Shown piece by piece: positions 2,418 to 46,627 of a stretch of DNA of 64,000 nt. Location: contig NZ_CP018092.1 of assembly GCF_002754935.1 (NCBI RefSeq), positions 1,240,001 to 1,304,000 of the forward strand, in the 5' to 3' direction. This DNA is from Thermostichus lividus PCC 6715. Lineage in GTDB: Bacteria; Cyanobacteriota; Cyanobacteriia; Thermosynechococcales; Thermosynechococcaceae. The notes beneath the pieces are model-generated. The model saw only the letters and a list, made by a program, of their open reading frames with translations, was not told the origin of the DNA and made no database searches. Within the stretch, counting starts at the first letter, position 1. Each line of letters opens with the position of its first letter. A program made the translations under genes and the position numbers.

Positions 2418-3374
2418 CTAACTAGCAAGGTACTCATGAATATCGCTCCGGCGCTTGCGCAGCTTACTGAGGGCTTCCCGCTCAATTTGCCGCACCCGCT
2501 CCCGGCTAATGTTTAACAACTCACCCACCTTGGCGAGGGTCAGGGGTTGACCGTCTTCCAGCCCAAACCGCAGAGACAGCACTTGGCGTTGCTGCGGGGT
2601 TAAGTCCGCCATCAGCCGCTCTAAATCACTGCGCAAGGACGACTGAGCCGTAAACTCTTCCGGCGAAATCGAGGTATCCTCCAGCAGTTCGCCCAGTTCG
2701 GTATCTTGGTTGTCCCCCACCCGCACATCCAACGACAAGGGCTGCCGCGCCCGCTCCAGATACTCCCGCACTTGGGCTGGGGTGAGTTCCAGTTCTGCAG
2801 CCAGTTCGTTAATGGTGGCGGCTCGTCCTAGCCGCTGGGAGAGTTGGCGTTGCGCCTTCTTGATTTTGTTGAGCTTCTCGGTAATGTGAATGGGGAGCCG
2901 AATGGTGCGCCCCTTCTCAGCGATCGCCCGCGTAATAGCTTGGCGAATCCACCAGTACGCATAGGTAGAAAAGCGATACCCCTTCGTCGGATCAAACTTT
3001 TCCACCCCCCGCTGCATCCCAATCGTGCCCTCTTGAATCAGATCCAGCAGATCTACATTGCGCTTAATATACTTCTTGGCCACCGACACCACTAGGCGCA
3101 GATTGGCTTCCACCATCTTGCGCTTAGCCCGCTCGCCCATCTCAATAGCGCTCTCTAGCTCCGCTGGGTTGATATTAGCGGCAGTTGCCCACTCCTGTAG
3201 AGTTGGTTCACGCTTGAGGTCAGTGGCAAGCTGTTCGCGCAGCTCATTGAGTAGGGCAAGGTGCTGTACCTGTTTACCATAGATAACTTCTTGCTCGTGG
3301 GTTAGTAACGGTACACGACCAATCTCCCGCAGATAAGTACGTACCAAGTCTTTTGAAGTCTCCATAGTCACCAT
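2418..3374 (-). CDS. group 2 RNA polymerase sigma-70 factor
   Basis: A non-essential primary-like sigma factor of 318 residues. Region 1.2 starts at [16 protein letters not shown]. Region 2 contains [23 protein letters not shown] and the -10 recognition helix with [14 protein letters not shown]. Region 3 has HITEKLNKI, and region 4.2 ends with the helix-turn-helix [18 protein letters not shown]. There is no long N-terminal acidic extension, which separates it from SigA. Cyanobacterial group 2 factors (SigB to SigE) control stress, circadian and nitrogen/carbon responses. The exact letter cannot be fixed from sequence alone; the N-terminus is most like SigB/SigD. It is convergent with the ketoacyl synthase, only 8 bases apart. 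A second in-frame ATG lies three codons in. Confidence 0.93.
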
Positions 3375-18094: not shown

Positions 18095-21000
18095 ATGAAC
18101 TCCCCACGGTTTAGTTTTAGCGGTCTGGCCGTTACCCGTCATATTGGCACCCTAATGCTCACGTTGACCGTCATTGTCTTGGCGGTCTTTATAGTAATGC
18201 GGTTACAAGTGGACTTGCTACCCAGCATTACCTATCCGCGGATTGGCGTGCGTTTGGATAGTCCGGGGGTGGTGCCCAATGTTGCGGTTGAGGAGATCAC
18301 CAAACCCCTTGAAGAAGCCCTGAGCCGCACTGAGGGGGTAGTGCAAGTCTATTCCCAGACCCGCGAAGGCCAAGTCAGTATTGACCTTTTTTTTGAGCCG
18401 GGGGGCGATGTCGATCAGGCTCTTAACGAGGCAACTGCTGCCTTTAACCGCGCCCGCAGTACGTTGCCTGATGTCATTGAGTCGCCGCGACTGTTTAAGT
18501 TTGACCCCTCCCAACTGCCGGTCTATGAGTTTGCCCTTACCTCCGCGGAACTCAGTGGCCGTGAGCTACGGGTCTTTGCCGATGAAGACCTAGATCGCGA
18601 GTTAAGTATCGTTCCTGGGGTGGCGGGGGTGGATATCTCTGGGGGAACCACCGAGGAAGTACGGATTTTGGTGGATTTAGAGCGATTGCAGGCCACAGGG
18701 GTGGGCTTAAACCAACTTTTGACTGCCTTGGGCGATCGCAATCAGGATGTGTCGGGGGGTCGGATTCGCGGCAGTGAGTCGGAACCCTTAACCCGCACGG
18801 TGGGACGATTTCGCACGGCCAGTGACATTGAAGAGGTCATCCTCACTGGTCATCAGGGGCAGCGAGTCTATCTGCGGGATGTAGCGCAGGTAATCGATGG
18901 GAGTGCCGAGCAGCGGGTGTTTGTCACCCTCAACGGTCAACCCGCCGTCAAGGTGAGTATCCTCAAGCAACCAGATGCCAATACGGTGGAAGTAGCCGAT
19001 GGCATTAAACGCCGTTTAGCAGCGTTACAAGCTGCAAATTTGGTGCCTGCGGGTACCCACATCGTCCCTGTCTTGGATGAATCGGTGTATATCCGCAACT
19101 CCCTCAACAATGTGGCCACAGCGGGGATGACCGGAACCCTGTTGGCGGCGATCGCCGTCCTGCTGTTCCTTGGCTCGGTACGGCAAACCTTAATCATTGT
19201 CTTGGCCATTCCCCTTTCGACCATGGCGGCCATGCTCCTGATGGGAGTGTTTGGCTTTTCCCTCAATGTCTTTAGCTTGGGGGGTCTGGCACTAGGGGTG
19301 GGGATTGTAGTCGATAACGCCATTGTGATGCTGGAAACGCTCGCGGATATTAACCCGCAGCAGATGAGCCAAGAGCAATATCTTGAAGAGGTGAAGCGGC
19401 GCAGTCGGGGGATTGAATCGGCGTTGTTAGCCTCCACATTGACGAACCTAGTTGCCATCCTGCCCTTTCTATTGTTGGGTGGGCTTGTGGCTCTGCTCTT
19501 TAACGAGCTGATCCTCACCATTAGCTTTGCGGTGGCAGCGTCTTTAGTGGTGGCACTCACGGTTGTGCCAGCCTTAGCCTCGCGGCTACTGGGGCTGCGG
19601 GTTCAAAATCAGTTGCGTCAAGTGGCACCTATCCGCGTGTTTAACGCCAAGTTCCTTTGGTTGACAGCCCAGTACGAGCGAGCATTGGTGCGGGTATTGC
19701 GGGGGCGTTGGCTCGTCGTTGGCGGGGCGATCGCCCTGTTGGGGGGTGGCAGTTGGCTATTGGCACAACATATCCCCCAAGAACTGCTGCCGCGCATCAA
19801 CACAGGGCAAGTGAACCTCACCGCCATCTTTCCCCCAGGAACCCCCTTACCCACGAGTCGCCGCATCATGCAGGCAGTGGATCAACTTCTCCTAGAGCAG
19901 CCCGGAACCCAAGATGTGTTCACCACTACAGGGGGGCGCTCTTTGGCACCACCACCATTGCCAATCCCCTGCGCAGCTCCAGCACTATTATTCTCAAGCC
20001 CGGGGTGAGTGTCGATCGCTATATTACGACAGCCACCCAAGCCCTAGAGCAACTGAATCTCGTGGGGGTACGACTGCGCCTGAGTCCGGGGCAGGTGCGG
20101 GGGATTATCCTCACGAACTCGCCAGTGCGCGGTGCCGATGTGGATGTTATGCTACGGGGCAGCGATGAGGCCACGTTGAATCGCTTTGGCCGCCAAGTGT
20201 TGCAAGCCCTCGATGAAAAAGCCACCTTGGTGCGCTTTCGCCCCGATGCCGACCCGCGCCAACCAGAAATTCAAATTTTACCGGACTGGGAGCGCGCCAG
20301 CGAACTCAACTTAAATACCCTCAATCTGGGGCAAACGATTCAGACGGCGCTTGAGGGCTTTGTGCCTACCCGGCTGCAGCGGGGCGATCGCCTCGTGGAT
20401 ATTCGCGTTCAACTGGATAGCGATAGCATTGAGCACCCCGAAGACCTGAGGCAGATTCCCCTATTCACGGACAATAACCGTCCCGTGCGCCTAGGGGAGG
20501 TTGCCCGCATTGAGGCCAGCCAAGCCCCCGGCGAAATCCGCCGCATTAACCAGCAGCAGGTCTTTATGATTGCCGGTAACTTGGTGGAAGGGGCACGTTT
20601 AAGCGCGGCTCTAGCCCAGGTACAGGAGATTCTCAATAGCCTTGAGTTTCCGGCGGGGGTGTCTCTCATGCCCAGTACGGCGGCAGCGGCTAATCAACAA
20701 CTGCAACAGGCGCTGGTGGTGCTGGGCAGCTTAGCGGCATTTCTTGTCTTTGTGGTGATGGCTGTCCAGTACAATTCCCTGTTGGATCCGCTGGTGATTA
20801 TGTTGACGATTCCCTTAGCGTTGGCCGGGGGGATCTGGGGGCTATACCTGACCCAGACCGCCATTGGTGCAACGGTGATTGTGGGTGCCATTTTGTTGGT
20901 GGGGATTGTGGTCAATAACGCCATCATCATGGTGGAATTAGCCAATGAGATTTATGTGCAAGAGGGCGGCAGCCGCACCCAAGCCATCCTCAAGGCAGCC

Positions 21001-21258
21001 CCTGCGCGCCTCCGACCCATTATGATGACCACCATTACCACCGTGGTAGGGATGTTTCCCTTGGCTTTGGGGTTAGGGGAAGGTTCAGAATTCCTACAAC
21101 CCCTTGGCATTGTTGTATTTTCAGGATTGGCAGTGGCCACCGTGCTAACGCTCTTTTTAATTCCCTGCTTTTACGTGATTTTGCATAGCTTTGAGCGATC
21201 GCCAAGGGTTCCGGTACCGATTGACGGGATTCCCCCCGAAGAGCTGCGGGAACGATGA
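18095..21258 (+). pseudogene. RND efflux transporter permease (AcrB/MdtB-like), split by a frameshift
   Basis: An inner-membrane proton-driven pump of the HAE1/AcrB class, about 1054 residues once repaired. Two similar halves are visible. The first has TM1 (GTLMLTLTVIVLAVFIVMRL), the periplasmic porter region, TM2-6 and GLALGVGIVVDNAIVMLE, which holds the TM4 Asp used for proton relay. The second repeats this with PLALAGGIWG, LVGIVVNNAIIMVE and RLRPIMMTTITT. The frames join at the G6 run 19931-19936; one extra G gives TTTGGALFGTTTIANP. The second half has Asn-Asn where the first has Asp-Asn, as usual. No membrane-fusion partner or TolC gene is adjacent, so substrate and partner are unknown. 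Confidence 0.9.
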
Positions 21259-24425: not shown

Positions 24426-25208
24426 CTAACTCGACAAAATTAATTCCCATTCCTCAAGAAGCGTATCAATACTACTATCGGAGTGGCTGGCTGGCTCTGG
24501 CGGCGTGGAGTTGGTCTCTAGTTGCTCTGTAGTGTCTGGAAAGAGGGCGTCGCTCTCCTGTGCTGGCACAGATGAAGGTGGGGTCAAGTAAATCTCACGG
24601 ACATCGCTGGGGAGGCGATCGCCCAGCATATCTAACCCCTGCTCTAGGTGCTGCTGAAGTTCTGCGAGGCTAACCGTTTCCCCTTGGACTTCCAGATACG
24701 CCCGTACTCGCTCTAAACTCCAATGGAAGGTTTGGGTAGTCACCAACACCAAGCGGGTGAGAGCAGGCAAATACGCAAGGCTGGCCTCAAGATAGCACCA
24801 GAGGGGGGGAGGGGCATCCTTCAGAGTATAGGTAATGTACTCGATACCCGGCAGATCTTCTTGAATCAGTGTGGCAGTACGATTGACAATCCAGTTGCGC
24901 AGCGATGCAGCTTCTTCGTCACCAACCCTAATTCCCGTCGGCGTGAATTCTACGAGATCAAGACTAAAAAAGAGGGTATGCCACATTTTGGCAAAGAGGT
25001 AATCAACCTGTACAGGCGATTTCCCATGGTGTTGCAAGACACTGTAAACCAAGGGAGCGTAGCGACAGTAGAGCGCAATGAAGTAGCAGCCGCGATCGCG
25101 CTCATCCTGAAACCCATGAATCAATGCCTCATCTGACCACTCTAAAAGAGGTTGAATGAGGGGGTGTTGCCGCTCCGTCATCATCGGGAAGGAAAGTACC
25201 TTGATCAT
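24426..25208 (-). CDS. sigma-factor-like regulatory protein, unnamed
   Basis: 260 residues from ATG 25206-25208, which follows AAGGGCAGTGAG; the frame is open further upstream but that part looks non-coding. Residues 20-100 look like sigma-70 region 2 (RGCYFIALYCRYAPLVYSVL, then LFAKMWHTLFFSLD). Residues 140-195 look like a region 4 helix-turn-helix (LAYLPALTRLVLVT, SLERVRAYLEVQG). The tail is acidic and Ser/Pro/Thr-rich. The overall plan is that of an ECF sigma factor, but motif conservation is weak, so it may be a sigma-derived regulator. It is transcribed divergently from the FHA-PrsW gene, so they may be co-regulated. Confidence 0.55.
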   Translation of the reverse strand: MIKVLSFPMMTERQHPLIQPLLEWSDEALIHGFQDERDRGCYFIALYCRYAPLVYSVLQHHGKSPVQVDYLFAKMWHTLFFSLDLVEFTPTGIRVGDEEAASLRNWIVNRTATLIQEDLPGIEYITYTLKDAPPPLWCYLEASLAYLPALTRLVLVTTQTFHWSLERVRAYLEVQGETVSLAELQQHLEQGLDMLGDRLPSDVREIYLTPPSSVPAQESDALFPDTTEQLETNSTPPEPASHSDSSIDTLLEEWELILSS

Positions 25209-25362
25209 CTCACTGCCCTTGAACCAGATAGTTCGCTCTACGGCGTTGGCAACTGTCCTATGCAGGTTCTCGCTAGCTGGTAGGGGGAGTGCCGACCTTA
25301 GTATTCTAGGTATTCTAGTCATTGACCGCCTGTGGTGAAACCCAGGGATTGGAACCCATGAT

Positions 25363-26664
25363 ATGACTGGCGATCGCCCCCGTTTTTCCCTCAACCCAAC
25401 CCTCAAGTATGCGGGTGTGCTGCGGCAGGTGGCACCGGAAATGGCGCAGTTTTGGCTCTCACAACAGGAACCAACAATTATGGGGCGCGATCCGGAGACC
25501 TGTCACATTGTCCTTGACTCCCAACTCTACACATCGGTCTCTCGCCACCATGCTCAGTTTAACTGTGCTACGCCTGCCCCCAACAGAATTCCCCAATGGT
25601 CAATTGTGGATCTAGGCAGCGTGAACGGCACCTACGTCAACCAACAACGGATCGAGCAGGAGACGCTCCTGAAGGCGGGCGATCGCATTCAGTTAGGTCG
25701 CCAAGGCCCTGAATTTGTGTTGGAATACTTGCCCCTCACCGATGTGGTCAGCACCACCCCCGATCAGCAACTGACCCTCACCCAACTGCTACCCATTTTC
25801 GCCATTCATCCCGACTGGGTGCGCAAGGCCTACCTTGTCCCCGGAATTGTTACGGTCATTGCCGTCATCCTGCTCTTTGCAGCTGCGGGTAACCCCAATG
25901 CCTTTAAGGTGATTTTGGCGCTGTACCTAGGTAGTGCCGCCTATTACTTCATCTATCAACTATGTGGCAAACGCAAGCCGTGGTGGGTACTCTTAGCCAG
26001 TCTGACCCTTGAGATTCTGATCCTGCAAAGTCCAATCTTGCCCGCCATGATCTATGTGTTTCGCACCGTGCTGCCCGGCCAACTTCGCCCCCCTGATCCC
26101 TCCTTTTGGGTGTTGCTGGGGCATAATTTTATTGGTGCAGGACTCATGGAAGAATTGCTCAAAGCGATGCCCATTGCTGTGGCCTATGGCTTGGGGCGCT
26201 GGTTACCCAGTCCGTGGCAACAAAAGATTGGGGTCTGGGAGCCATTGGATGGCATTCTTTTGGGAGCCGCCTCAGGGCTGGGCTTTACCTGGATGGAAAC
26301 CCTCGGACACTATGTGCCCGGGATTGCAGGGCAGTTTGGGGATCTAGCAGGCTTACAAGTCCTTATTCCGCGGGTGTTGGGATCCCTGACCGGCCACATG
26401 GCCTACACCGGCTACTTGGGCTACTGCATTGGCTTGAGTGTACTGCGCCCTCGCTATGCGCTGCTCATTGTGATCGTGGGGCTGGGGCTATCTGCGTTTT
26501 TGCACGCTCTCTGGAATGCCTCTGCGGCTAGTTTTGGCCCCATGGGGTTAGCCGTGGTTGGAATTTTGGCCTATCTATTTTTAACCGCAGCCATTCTCAA
26601 GGCACGACAACTCTCGCCGACGCGATCGCAAAACTTTGCTACCCGCTTCTACGGCCATCGCTGA
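25363..26664 (+). CDS. FHA domain fused to a PrsW-type intramembrane protease
   Basis: 433 residues. Residues 35-120 are an FHA phosphothreonine-binding domain: Gly41-Arg42, SVSRHHAQF (58-66) and GSVNGTYVN (85-93). From about 150 on there are roughly eight to nine membrane segments carrying the PrsW (CPBP-related) metalloprotease motifs: EExxK in MEELLKAMP (Glu263, Glu264, Lys267), Glu312 in WMETLGH, His345 in LTGHMAYTG and His381 in FLHALWNAS. PrsW cleaves anti-sigma factors in Bacillus. Here the FHA domain would let phosphorylation recruit substrates or partners (inference). It is divergent from the sigma-like gene. ATG 25363 is used. Confidence 0.82.
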   Translation: MTGDRPRFSLNPTLKYAGVLRQVAPEMAQFWLSQQEPTIMGRDPETCHIVLDSQLYTSVSRHHAQFNCATPAPNRIPQWSIVDLGSVNGTYVNQQRIEQETLLKAGDRIQLGRQGPEFVLEYLPLTDVVSTTPDQQLTLTQLLPIFAIHPDWVRKAYLVPGIVTVIAVILLFAAAGNPNAFKVILALYLGSAAYYFIYQLCGKRKPWWVLLASLTLEILILQSPILPAMIYVFRTVLPGQLRPPDPSFWVLLGHNFIGAGLMEELLKAMPIAVAYGLGRWLPSPWQQKIGVWEPLDGILLGAASGLGFTWMETLGHYVPGIAGQFGDLAGLQVLIPRVLGSLTGHMAYTGYLGYCIGLSVLRPRYALLIVIVGLGLSAFLHALWNASAASFGPMGLAVVGILAYLFLTAAILKARQLSPTRSQNFATRFYGHR

Positions 26665-45514: not shown

Positions 45515-46627
45515 ATGGTGGTTACCCCAATTGAACCCGCCCCCCGACGCCCCTTGACCACCGATCTGGTGGGTCAGTATTTACGAGAAATTGGCCGCGT
45601 CCCGCTCCTCAGCCCCGCCCAAGAGGTGACGCTGGCACAGCAGGTGCAGCAATACCAGAGTCTTTTAGAGGTCTGCAAGCAGTCCTCAGATCCAGACCTT
45701 CAAGCTTATACCGCTGCTTTGGCCGAGCGCGATCGCCAACATCGTCAATTGGGGCACATGCCCAATCGTCAGCAGTGGGCTGCCGCCCTCAAGCTGAGCG
45801 TTGAGGAACTGCAAGTGGTAATTCAGCGCGGTTGCCAAGCCTGGGCGAAGGCCGCACAGATCTCCGTTGCTGAACTAGAACAGATCGAATACCATGGCAC
45901 CCACGCCAAAGCCCAACTGCTGCAAGCCAACCTCCGCTTAGTGGTCAACATTGCCAAAAAATATCAACATCGCGGCGTTGAGTTCCTTGATCTGATCCAA
46001 GAAGGCACCCTAGGTTTGGAGCGTGCCGTTGAAAAATTTGACCCTGCCAAAGGCTTTCGCTTTAGCACCTACGCCTACTGGTGGATTCGCCAGAGTGTCA
46101 CTCGTGCGGTTGCCAACCAAAGTCGCACAATCCGTCTGCCCATTCACATGGTTGAAAAACTCAATAAAATCAAGCGGGCGCAGCGCCGGTTAGCCATACA
46201 GCAGGGAGCTATGCCCAGTGTGGCTGAAATTGCCGCGGAACTGAATCTAGACGCAACCCAAGTGCGGGAGGTGTTACTAGCAATTCCCCGTGCCATTGCC
46301 CTTGAACAGCGGGTGGGGCCAGAGCAAGAGACCGAGTTGCAGGAGTTGATTGAGGCCACCACCCCTACCCCCAACGACGTGCTCATGCGGGACTCCTTGC
46401 GCATGACACTGCAGCAGATGCTCGGTGATCTGTCCCCCCGCGAACGGCAGGTGATCGAGCTACGCTATGGCCTAGGGGATCTTCCGCCACTGGAGATGTC
46501 GGAAATTGCTACCCTGCTCGGCCTTAGCCGTGAACGGATTCGCCAGATTGAGCACCGCGCCCTGCAGAAGCTGCGACAGCCACAACGACGACGGCAGATC
46601 CAAGACTACCTTGACGAGTTGGACTAG
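45515..46627 (+). CDS. group 2 RNA polymerase sigma-70 factor (second copy type)
   Basis: 370 residues. Region 1.2: [18 protein letters not shown]. Region 2: ANLRLVVNIAKKYQHRGVEFLDLI (shown to 20: LVVNIAKKYQHRGVEFLDLI) and [14 protein letters not shown]. Region 4.2: LGLSRERIRQIEHRALQKLR. An insert of about 60 residues between regions 1.2 and 2 (QSLLEVCKQSSDPDLQAY and following) sets it apart from the sigma factor at 2.4 kb and recalls SigC-type factors, but the name is uncertain. It is convergent with cbiM, overlapping it by 4 bases. Confidence 0.92.
   Translation: MVVTPIEPAPRRPLTTDLVGQYLREIGRVPLLSPAQEVTLAQQVQQYQSLLEVCKQSSDPDLQAYTAALAERDRQHRQLGHMPNRQQWAAALKLSVEELQVVIQRGCQAWAKAAQISVAELEQIEYHGTHAKAQLLQANLRLVVNIAKKYQHRGVEFLDLIQEGTLGLERAVEKFDPAKGFRFSTYAYWWIRQSVTRAVANQSRTIRLPIHMVEKLNKIKRAQRRLAIQQGAMPSVAEIAAELNLDATQVREVLLAIPRAIALEQRVGPEQETELQELIEATTPTPNDVLMRDSLRMTLQQMLGDLSPRERQVIELRYGLGDLPPLEMSEIATLLGLSRERIRQIEHRALQKLRQPQRRRQIQDYLDELD

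Follow-up and report, generated by a model that had tools for sequence, protein, structure and literature searches.

The window analysed here is a stretch of 64,000 nucleotides from the genome of Thermostichus lividus PCC 6715 (positions 1,240,001 to 1,304,000 of the forward strand of NZ_CP018092.1). It encodes a protein of 433 amino acids that combines an FHA domain with a PrsW-type membrane peptidase (FHA-PrsW). The adjoining gene, on the opposite strand, encodes a protein with a sigma-factor-like fold. The following features were identified:

25363 to 26664, + strand: FHA-PrsW gene, 433 aa, one ORF (ORF listing, Pfam)
25477 to 25698, + strand: FHA domain, residues 39-112 (Pfam PF00498, fold match)
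Within the FHA domain, + strand: phosphate-binding signature G41 R42 S60 R61 H63 N88 G89 T90
25975 to 26592, + strand: PrsW-protease domain, residues 205-410, with E263 E264 K267 E312 H345 H381 (Pfam PF13367)
26614 to 26649, + strand: conserved C-terminal tail, residues 418-429 (conservation; low model confidence)
25209 to 25362, no strand: intergenic stretch between the divergent genes, about 154 bp
24426 to 25208, - strand: sigma-fold neighbour, 260 aa (fold matches, family alignment)
24837 to 25139, - strand: sigma region-2-like domain, neighbour residues 24-124 (structure matches)
24606 to 24806, - strand: sigma region-4-like domain, neighbour residues about 135-201 (structure matches, Sigma70_r4_2 in relatives)

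Elsewhere in the window, at 18095-21258 (+), the ORF translations point to an RND-type efflux pump whose gene appears to be split, as if by a frameshift, into overlapping ORFs of 637 and 533 aa that lie in different frames.

The earlier note had described the gene at 25363-26664 as a fusion of FHA and PrsW domains, and this is borne out: a single ORF spans the gene, and both domains were identified above the curated Pfam cut-offs (PF00498, E 8.6e-19, 68.2 bits versus 20.7; PF13367, E 1.7e-34, 119.5 bits versus 23.5). This protein is the sole PrsW match of the genome, which is one contig of 2.66 Mb. Glu263 and Glu264, the catalytic residues named in that note, form the EE of the motif GLMEELLK. 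We take the role of the PrsW signature (EExxK, a later E and two H motifs) to be the one that these residues have in the PrsW family.

Bacillus subtilis PrsW belongs to the same Pfam family (PF13367) and shares the EExxK, later E and H residues with FHA-PrsW. It differs from FHA-PrsW, which has an added FHA domain and no linked anti-sigma factor. Because FHA-PrsW scores only 18.1 bits against the Bacillus-type PrsW equivalog NF033739 of NCBIfam, far under the cut-off of 225 bits, we did not file it as an orthologue of the Bacillus protein. The latter is the site-1 protease of the anti-sigma factor RsiW, which it cuts (PMC3498285).

An AlphaFold2 model of FHA-PrsW was built from 30 sequences (mean pLDDT 75.5, pTM 0.66). 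The FHA domains of OdhI, GarA and DgcB are among the closest folds to its FHA part, at Z about 12. In the model, the helices of the PrsW membrane domain fit about eight spans; a simple hydropathy scan returned fewer clear segments. With about eight helical spans, the FHA domain would face the cytosol and the C-terminal tail would share that side of the membrane. A role in defence was considered and dropped, as PADLOC matches neither FHA-PrsW nor its sigma-fold neighbour.

All 11 genomes of the genus, counting that of the window, encode FHA-PrsW. The copies of the ten other congeners are 82-94% identical to that of the window, one at 94% and nine at 82-85%. Among the best 80 of 389 named matches, the closest (81-83%) are from Thermosynechococcus; most of these 80 loci are from Nostocales. 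Across the class the gene was found in 150 of 242 genomes, themselves a sample of a larger group, and absences from this count are soft because the search required E <= 1e-15 and scored at most seven candidates per genome.

The protease reading depends on catalytic residues being retained in orthologues, and they are: E263, E264, K267, E312, H345 and H381 are unvarying in 148 of 148 distinct homologues. This set comprises 126 distinct homologues (130 rows minus 4 identical) and 22 added ones, chosen mostly for a class-search match that stopped short of the C-terminus; fractions of the set are therefore not population frequencies. The complete FHA phosphate-binding signature occurs in 143 of the 148, and two further homologues depart from it solely by T90I. 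In L208 and L209, which are second FHA-PrsW copies in genomes G119 and G211, NPI replaces the NGT of the FHA domain. The FHA domain of L226 is degenerate (S-G-x-Q and NPP). All three retain intact PrsW residues despite their altered FHA signatures. Thus, reading of phosphorylated partners is not obligatory, and the sequences suggest that in some lineages the FHA domain no longer reads phosphopeptides.

Fusions of PrsW to FHA, PilZ and cNMP-binding domains were read as probable signalling peptidases by Zhang et al. (2012), in the section of PMC3482391 that treats them. The FHA-PrsW fusions of that section have the same PrsW membrane peptidase and phosphopeptide-binding FHA domain, and were given the same signalling reading. 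The fusion type is already in print, and from its sequence the protein described here is probably another phospho-gated signalling peptidase. That section gives FHA-PrsW one sentence, to which we add a set of orthologues, the conservation of their residues and their gene context. It was the only open-access PMC paper found that treats PrsW together with the FHA domain. Among the papers listed there for PrsW and cyanobacteria, none besides PMC3482391 appears to be a study of a cyanobacterial PrsW, and a search for intramembrane proteases and anti-sigma factors in cyanobacteria listed two papers, on site-2 proteases.

We consider it probable, with some reserve, that FHA-PrsW is a PrsW-family intramembrane protease gated by a cytosolic reader of phosphothreonine. 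Its support is computational: the domains and their folds are recognised, the PrsW and FHA residues are both conserved, and the same genome encodes many kinases. Eleven Pkinase matches exceed the cut-off, and phosphothreonine signals are therefore likely in these cells. In the proposed mechanism, a Ser/Thr kinase would phosphorylate a client, the protease itself or an adaptor, and the FHA domain would bind the resulting phosphothreonine. Binding would recruit the client to the PrsW active site or switch that site on, a membrane protein would be cut, and a PP2C phosphatase would reset the system. Proteolytic activity is predicted from the PrsW sequence, and both the control of PrsW by FHA binding and the phosphatase step are presumed. 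The earlier note had drawn a path from kinase through FHA binding and intramembrane proteolysis to a transcription response. The half of that path that ends in proteolysis is plausible, given intact PrsW and FHA residues and the 11 kinase matches.

One candidate client is an anti-sigma factor encoded elsewhere in the genome. A single zf-HC2 anti-sigma factor was identified, beside an ECF sigma factor at 105 kb on the contig and far from FHA-PrsW; it has one clear hydrophobic stretch (residues 86-104). By position and literature the pair is recognisable as sigG-sapG-like: according to PMC2758279, BP-1 and other cyanobacteria conserve sigG-sapG, and SigG and SapG interact in yeast. FHA-PrsW could then be the site-1 protease for SapG, the membrane anti-sigma of the ECF factor SigG. 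Homologues of the anti-sigma factor occur in 204 of the 242 genomes of the class, among them 145 of the 150 that encode FHA-PrsW and 59 of the 92 that do not (Fisher p 1.9e-11, a value that ignores phylogeny). We give this co-occurrence little weight because, although positive, it is uncorrected for phylogeny, and it may reflect ancestry, since the listed genomes that are negative for the anti-sigma factor largely belong to one family (f2). Further, FHA-PrsW cannot be the only protease of the anti-sigma factor, because 59 genomes encode the latter without the former. Given also the distance between the two genes in the window genome, we regard cleavage of SapG by FHA-PrsW as unlikely.

A second alternative places the ligand of the FHA domain within the protein. 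OdhI, GarA and DgcB each have an N-terminal tail that docks on the FHA domain of the same protein. DgcB is an FHA-controlled enzyme whose self-peptide has hydrophobic residues at +2 and +3 (PMC6733907). The output of FHA-PrsW, a membrane peptidase, is unlike that of these three proteins, and a self-ligand in it is putative. Its last residues are SPTRSQNFATRF, a conserved ending, and in the model residues 419-433 have pLDDT under 50, so the tail is conserved though modelled at low confidence. N424-T427 is kept in 123 of the 126 distinct homologues, and mostly hydrophobic residues occupy positions +2 and +3 relative to T427. The motif is not universal in the wider set of 148, which overstates tail loss through the 22 sequences picked for short C-terminal matches. 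NFATR was found in none of the 18 PrsW proteins without FHA that were examined. A tail phosphorylated around T427 could, on these observations, dock on the FHA domain and toggle the protease. Twenty of the 148 homologues, however, have the full FHA signature and no such tail, and L226 retains the tail while its FHA domain is degenerate. Tail and FHA domain are thus separable, and we dropped the tail as an obligatory self-ligand and general rule. In the majority clade a self-ligand role is possible; as an account of how the protease is toggled, we think it distinctly unlikely.

The fold of the membrane part raises a third alternative. Model residues 174-425 match APH-1 of gamma-secretase (5a63_C; Z 11.9, rmsd 4.8, 219 residues aligned), in keeping with the APH-1/CPBP/PrsW superfamily, and also 7tm3_6 (Z 12.1, rmsd 4.1, 215 aligned). 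APH-1 is a scaffold subunit of gamma-secretase. These matches would suit an APH-1-like membrane protein that is inactive as an enzyme or structural in role, its FHA domain merely tethering it to phosphoproteins, but the six PrsW residues are unvarying in every one of the 148 homologues, and we judge such a protein very improbable.

The last alternative concerns the neighbouring gene, which the earlier note had taken for a divergent gene of ECF-sigma-like layout. Its divergent position was confirmed, at 24426-25208 (-) and about 154 bp from FHA-PrsW. Translation probably starts at the ATG at 25208, which aligns across the family; the mechanical ORF extends to a TTG at 25406 and overlaps FHA-PrsW. 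The layout holds at the level of fold, for regions 2 and 4, although the window copy itself matched no Pfam family. In the model (mean pLDDT 81.1), nearly all listed structure matches are sigma factors. Region 2 matches 4lup_A (Z 8.8, rmsd 2.4, 87 residues aligned) and SigW (5wuq_B; Z 8.6, rmsd 2.0, 85 aligned), and region 4 matches 8jzt_A (Z 7.3, rmsd 1.1, 57 aligned) and 1rp3_A (Z 7.5, rmsd 1.5, 54 aligned). These Z values are moderate, but the matches to the two regions come in the expected order. Inside the region-2-like part, residues 86-100 are modelled as a short beta insertion.

The folds of regions 2 and 4 are common to the neighbour and ECF sigma factors; unlike the latter, the window copy goes unrecognised by sequence, and its activity as a sigma factor is putative. 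Among 29 family members (L059, which has stop codons, was excluded from alignment A2), Sigma70_r4_2 was identified in 15 (best E 2.2e-6) and Sigma70_r2 in one, weakly (E 0.14). The family, whose sequences lie largely under the reach of Pfam, was found in 202 of the 242 class genomes and, judging by the model, could be a diverged sigma factor or sigma mimic that is widespread in cyanobacteria. We dropped the neighbour as a recognised sigma factor of this genome, since it lies outside all seven Sigma70_r2 matches. Two of those seven are within the window, away from FHA-PrsW, at 2907-3116 (-) and 45917-46129 (+).

Conservation of the divergent pair was not observed. The profile of the neighbour family was searched against 101 loci: 80 named ones, 20 drawn from the class sample, and that of the window. 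With flanks of up to 6 kb, some shorter at contig ends, it found a family member near FHA-PrsW at one locus, that of the window. Both genes are present in all ten other congeners and adjoin in none of them. Read by eye, the coordinates put at least about 0.4 Mb between the two genes in each of the seven with a single-contig genome, and place them on different contigs in the three drafts. DNA similarity to the congeners spans single genes, with no common flank (flanks of about 1.5 kb). The next nearest pair, by eye among the matches listed, is in G094, at about 18 kb. We therefore rejected the divergent pair as a module: the sigma-like gene beside FHA-PrsW is a chance neighbour in the window genome. 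The proposed link between protease and sigma factor falls away, and with it the transcription response that the earlier note had drawn through this gene. We consider it extremely improbable that cleavage of an anti-sigma factor by FHA-PrsW activates the protein encoded by the divergent gene, despite the orientation of the two genes in the window, the sigma fold of the neighbour and the cleavage of RsiW by Bacillus PrsW (PMC3498285), given a pair seen at 1 of 101 loci and in 0 of 10 other congeners, a neighbour outside the sigma matches of the genome, and the unequal spread of the two families (202 versus 150 of 242 genomes).

A different neighbourhood recurs in other cyanobacteria. At 62 of the 100 loci outside the window, three opposite-strand genes lie downstream of FHA-PrsW. 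Their products are an uncharacterised protein of about 210 aa, a CHAT-FHA protein and a PP2C protein with a zinc ribbon:

L171, 819-5770, and L096, 7289-12306 (examples among L091-L190): cassette tail-to-tail with FHA-PrsW

The full cassette was identified at 4 of the 20 class-sample loci. No cassette gene was seen at 25 loci, of which 4 had a short flank downstream. Across the class, FHA-PrsW and CHAT-FHA are within 5 kb of each other in 47 of 85 genomes, and in all 47 they are tail-to-tail. The 85 are those with listed best places for both genes, and fragmented contigs can hide adjacency. The 47 genomes fall in six families (24 in f25, 11 in f32, 7 in f16, 3 in f26, and 1 each in f28 and f38). 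Outside the 85, in G046, FHA-PrsW adjoins a PP2C gene without a listed CHAT-FHA. In 64 of 74 cases the CHAT-FHA gene adjoins the PP2C gene and shares its strand. The CHAT residues H278 (in YAGHG) and C318 (in NACWG; numbering of the first sequence) are invariant in 10 of 10 aligned proteins. For alignments A3 and A5, 10 and 6 members were chosen from their respective clusters. We take H278 and C318 to be the catalytic pair of CHAT-FHA.

The tail-to-tail arrangement is suggestive of a phospho-signalling context. The link between FHA-PrsW and CHAT-FHA is no stronger than suggestive because each gene often occurs without the other: many genomes have FHA-PrsW without CHAT-FHA, and the reverse was also seen. 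For the window genome the context is weak evidence for the same reason, and because full-length CHAT-FHA was not found in that genome or in the listed members of its family (f1). One match to the PP2C protein profile was identified there. No open-access PMC paper was found that joins the CHAT and FHA domains in cyanobacteria, nor one that joins CHAT, FHA and PP2C.

In summary, FHA-PrsW is best read as a probable phosphothreonine-gated intramembrane protease, and the CHAT-FHA/PP2C neighbourhood replaces the misleading sigma neighbour as the lead worth following. We propose tentatively, and consider rather doubtful, that FHA-PrsW is the membrane arm of a phosphothreonine-read proteolysis system, in which the caspase-like CHAT-FHA protease would be the soluble arm and the zinc-ribbon PP2C protein would provide the reset. 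If so, two proteases of different kinds would answer the same kinases, and Thermosynechococcus would keep the membrane arm and the phosphatase only. If the gate of FHA-PrsW works as proposed, bacterial Ser/Thr kinase signalling would be joined to intramembrane proteolysis in cyanobacteria.
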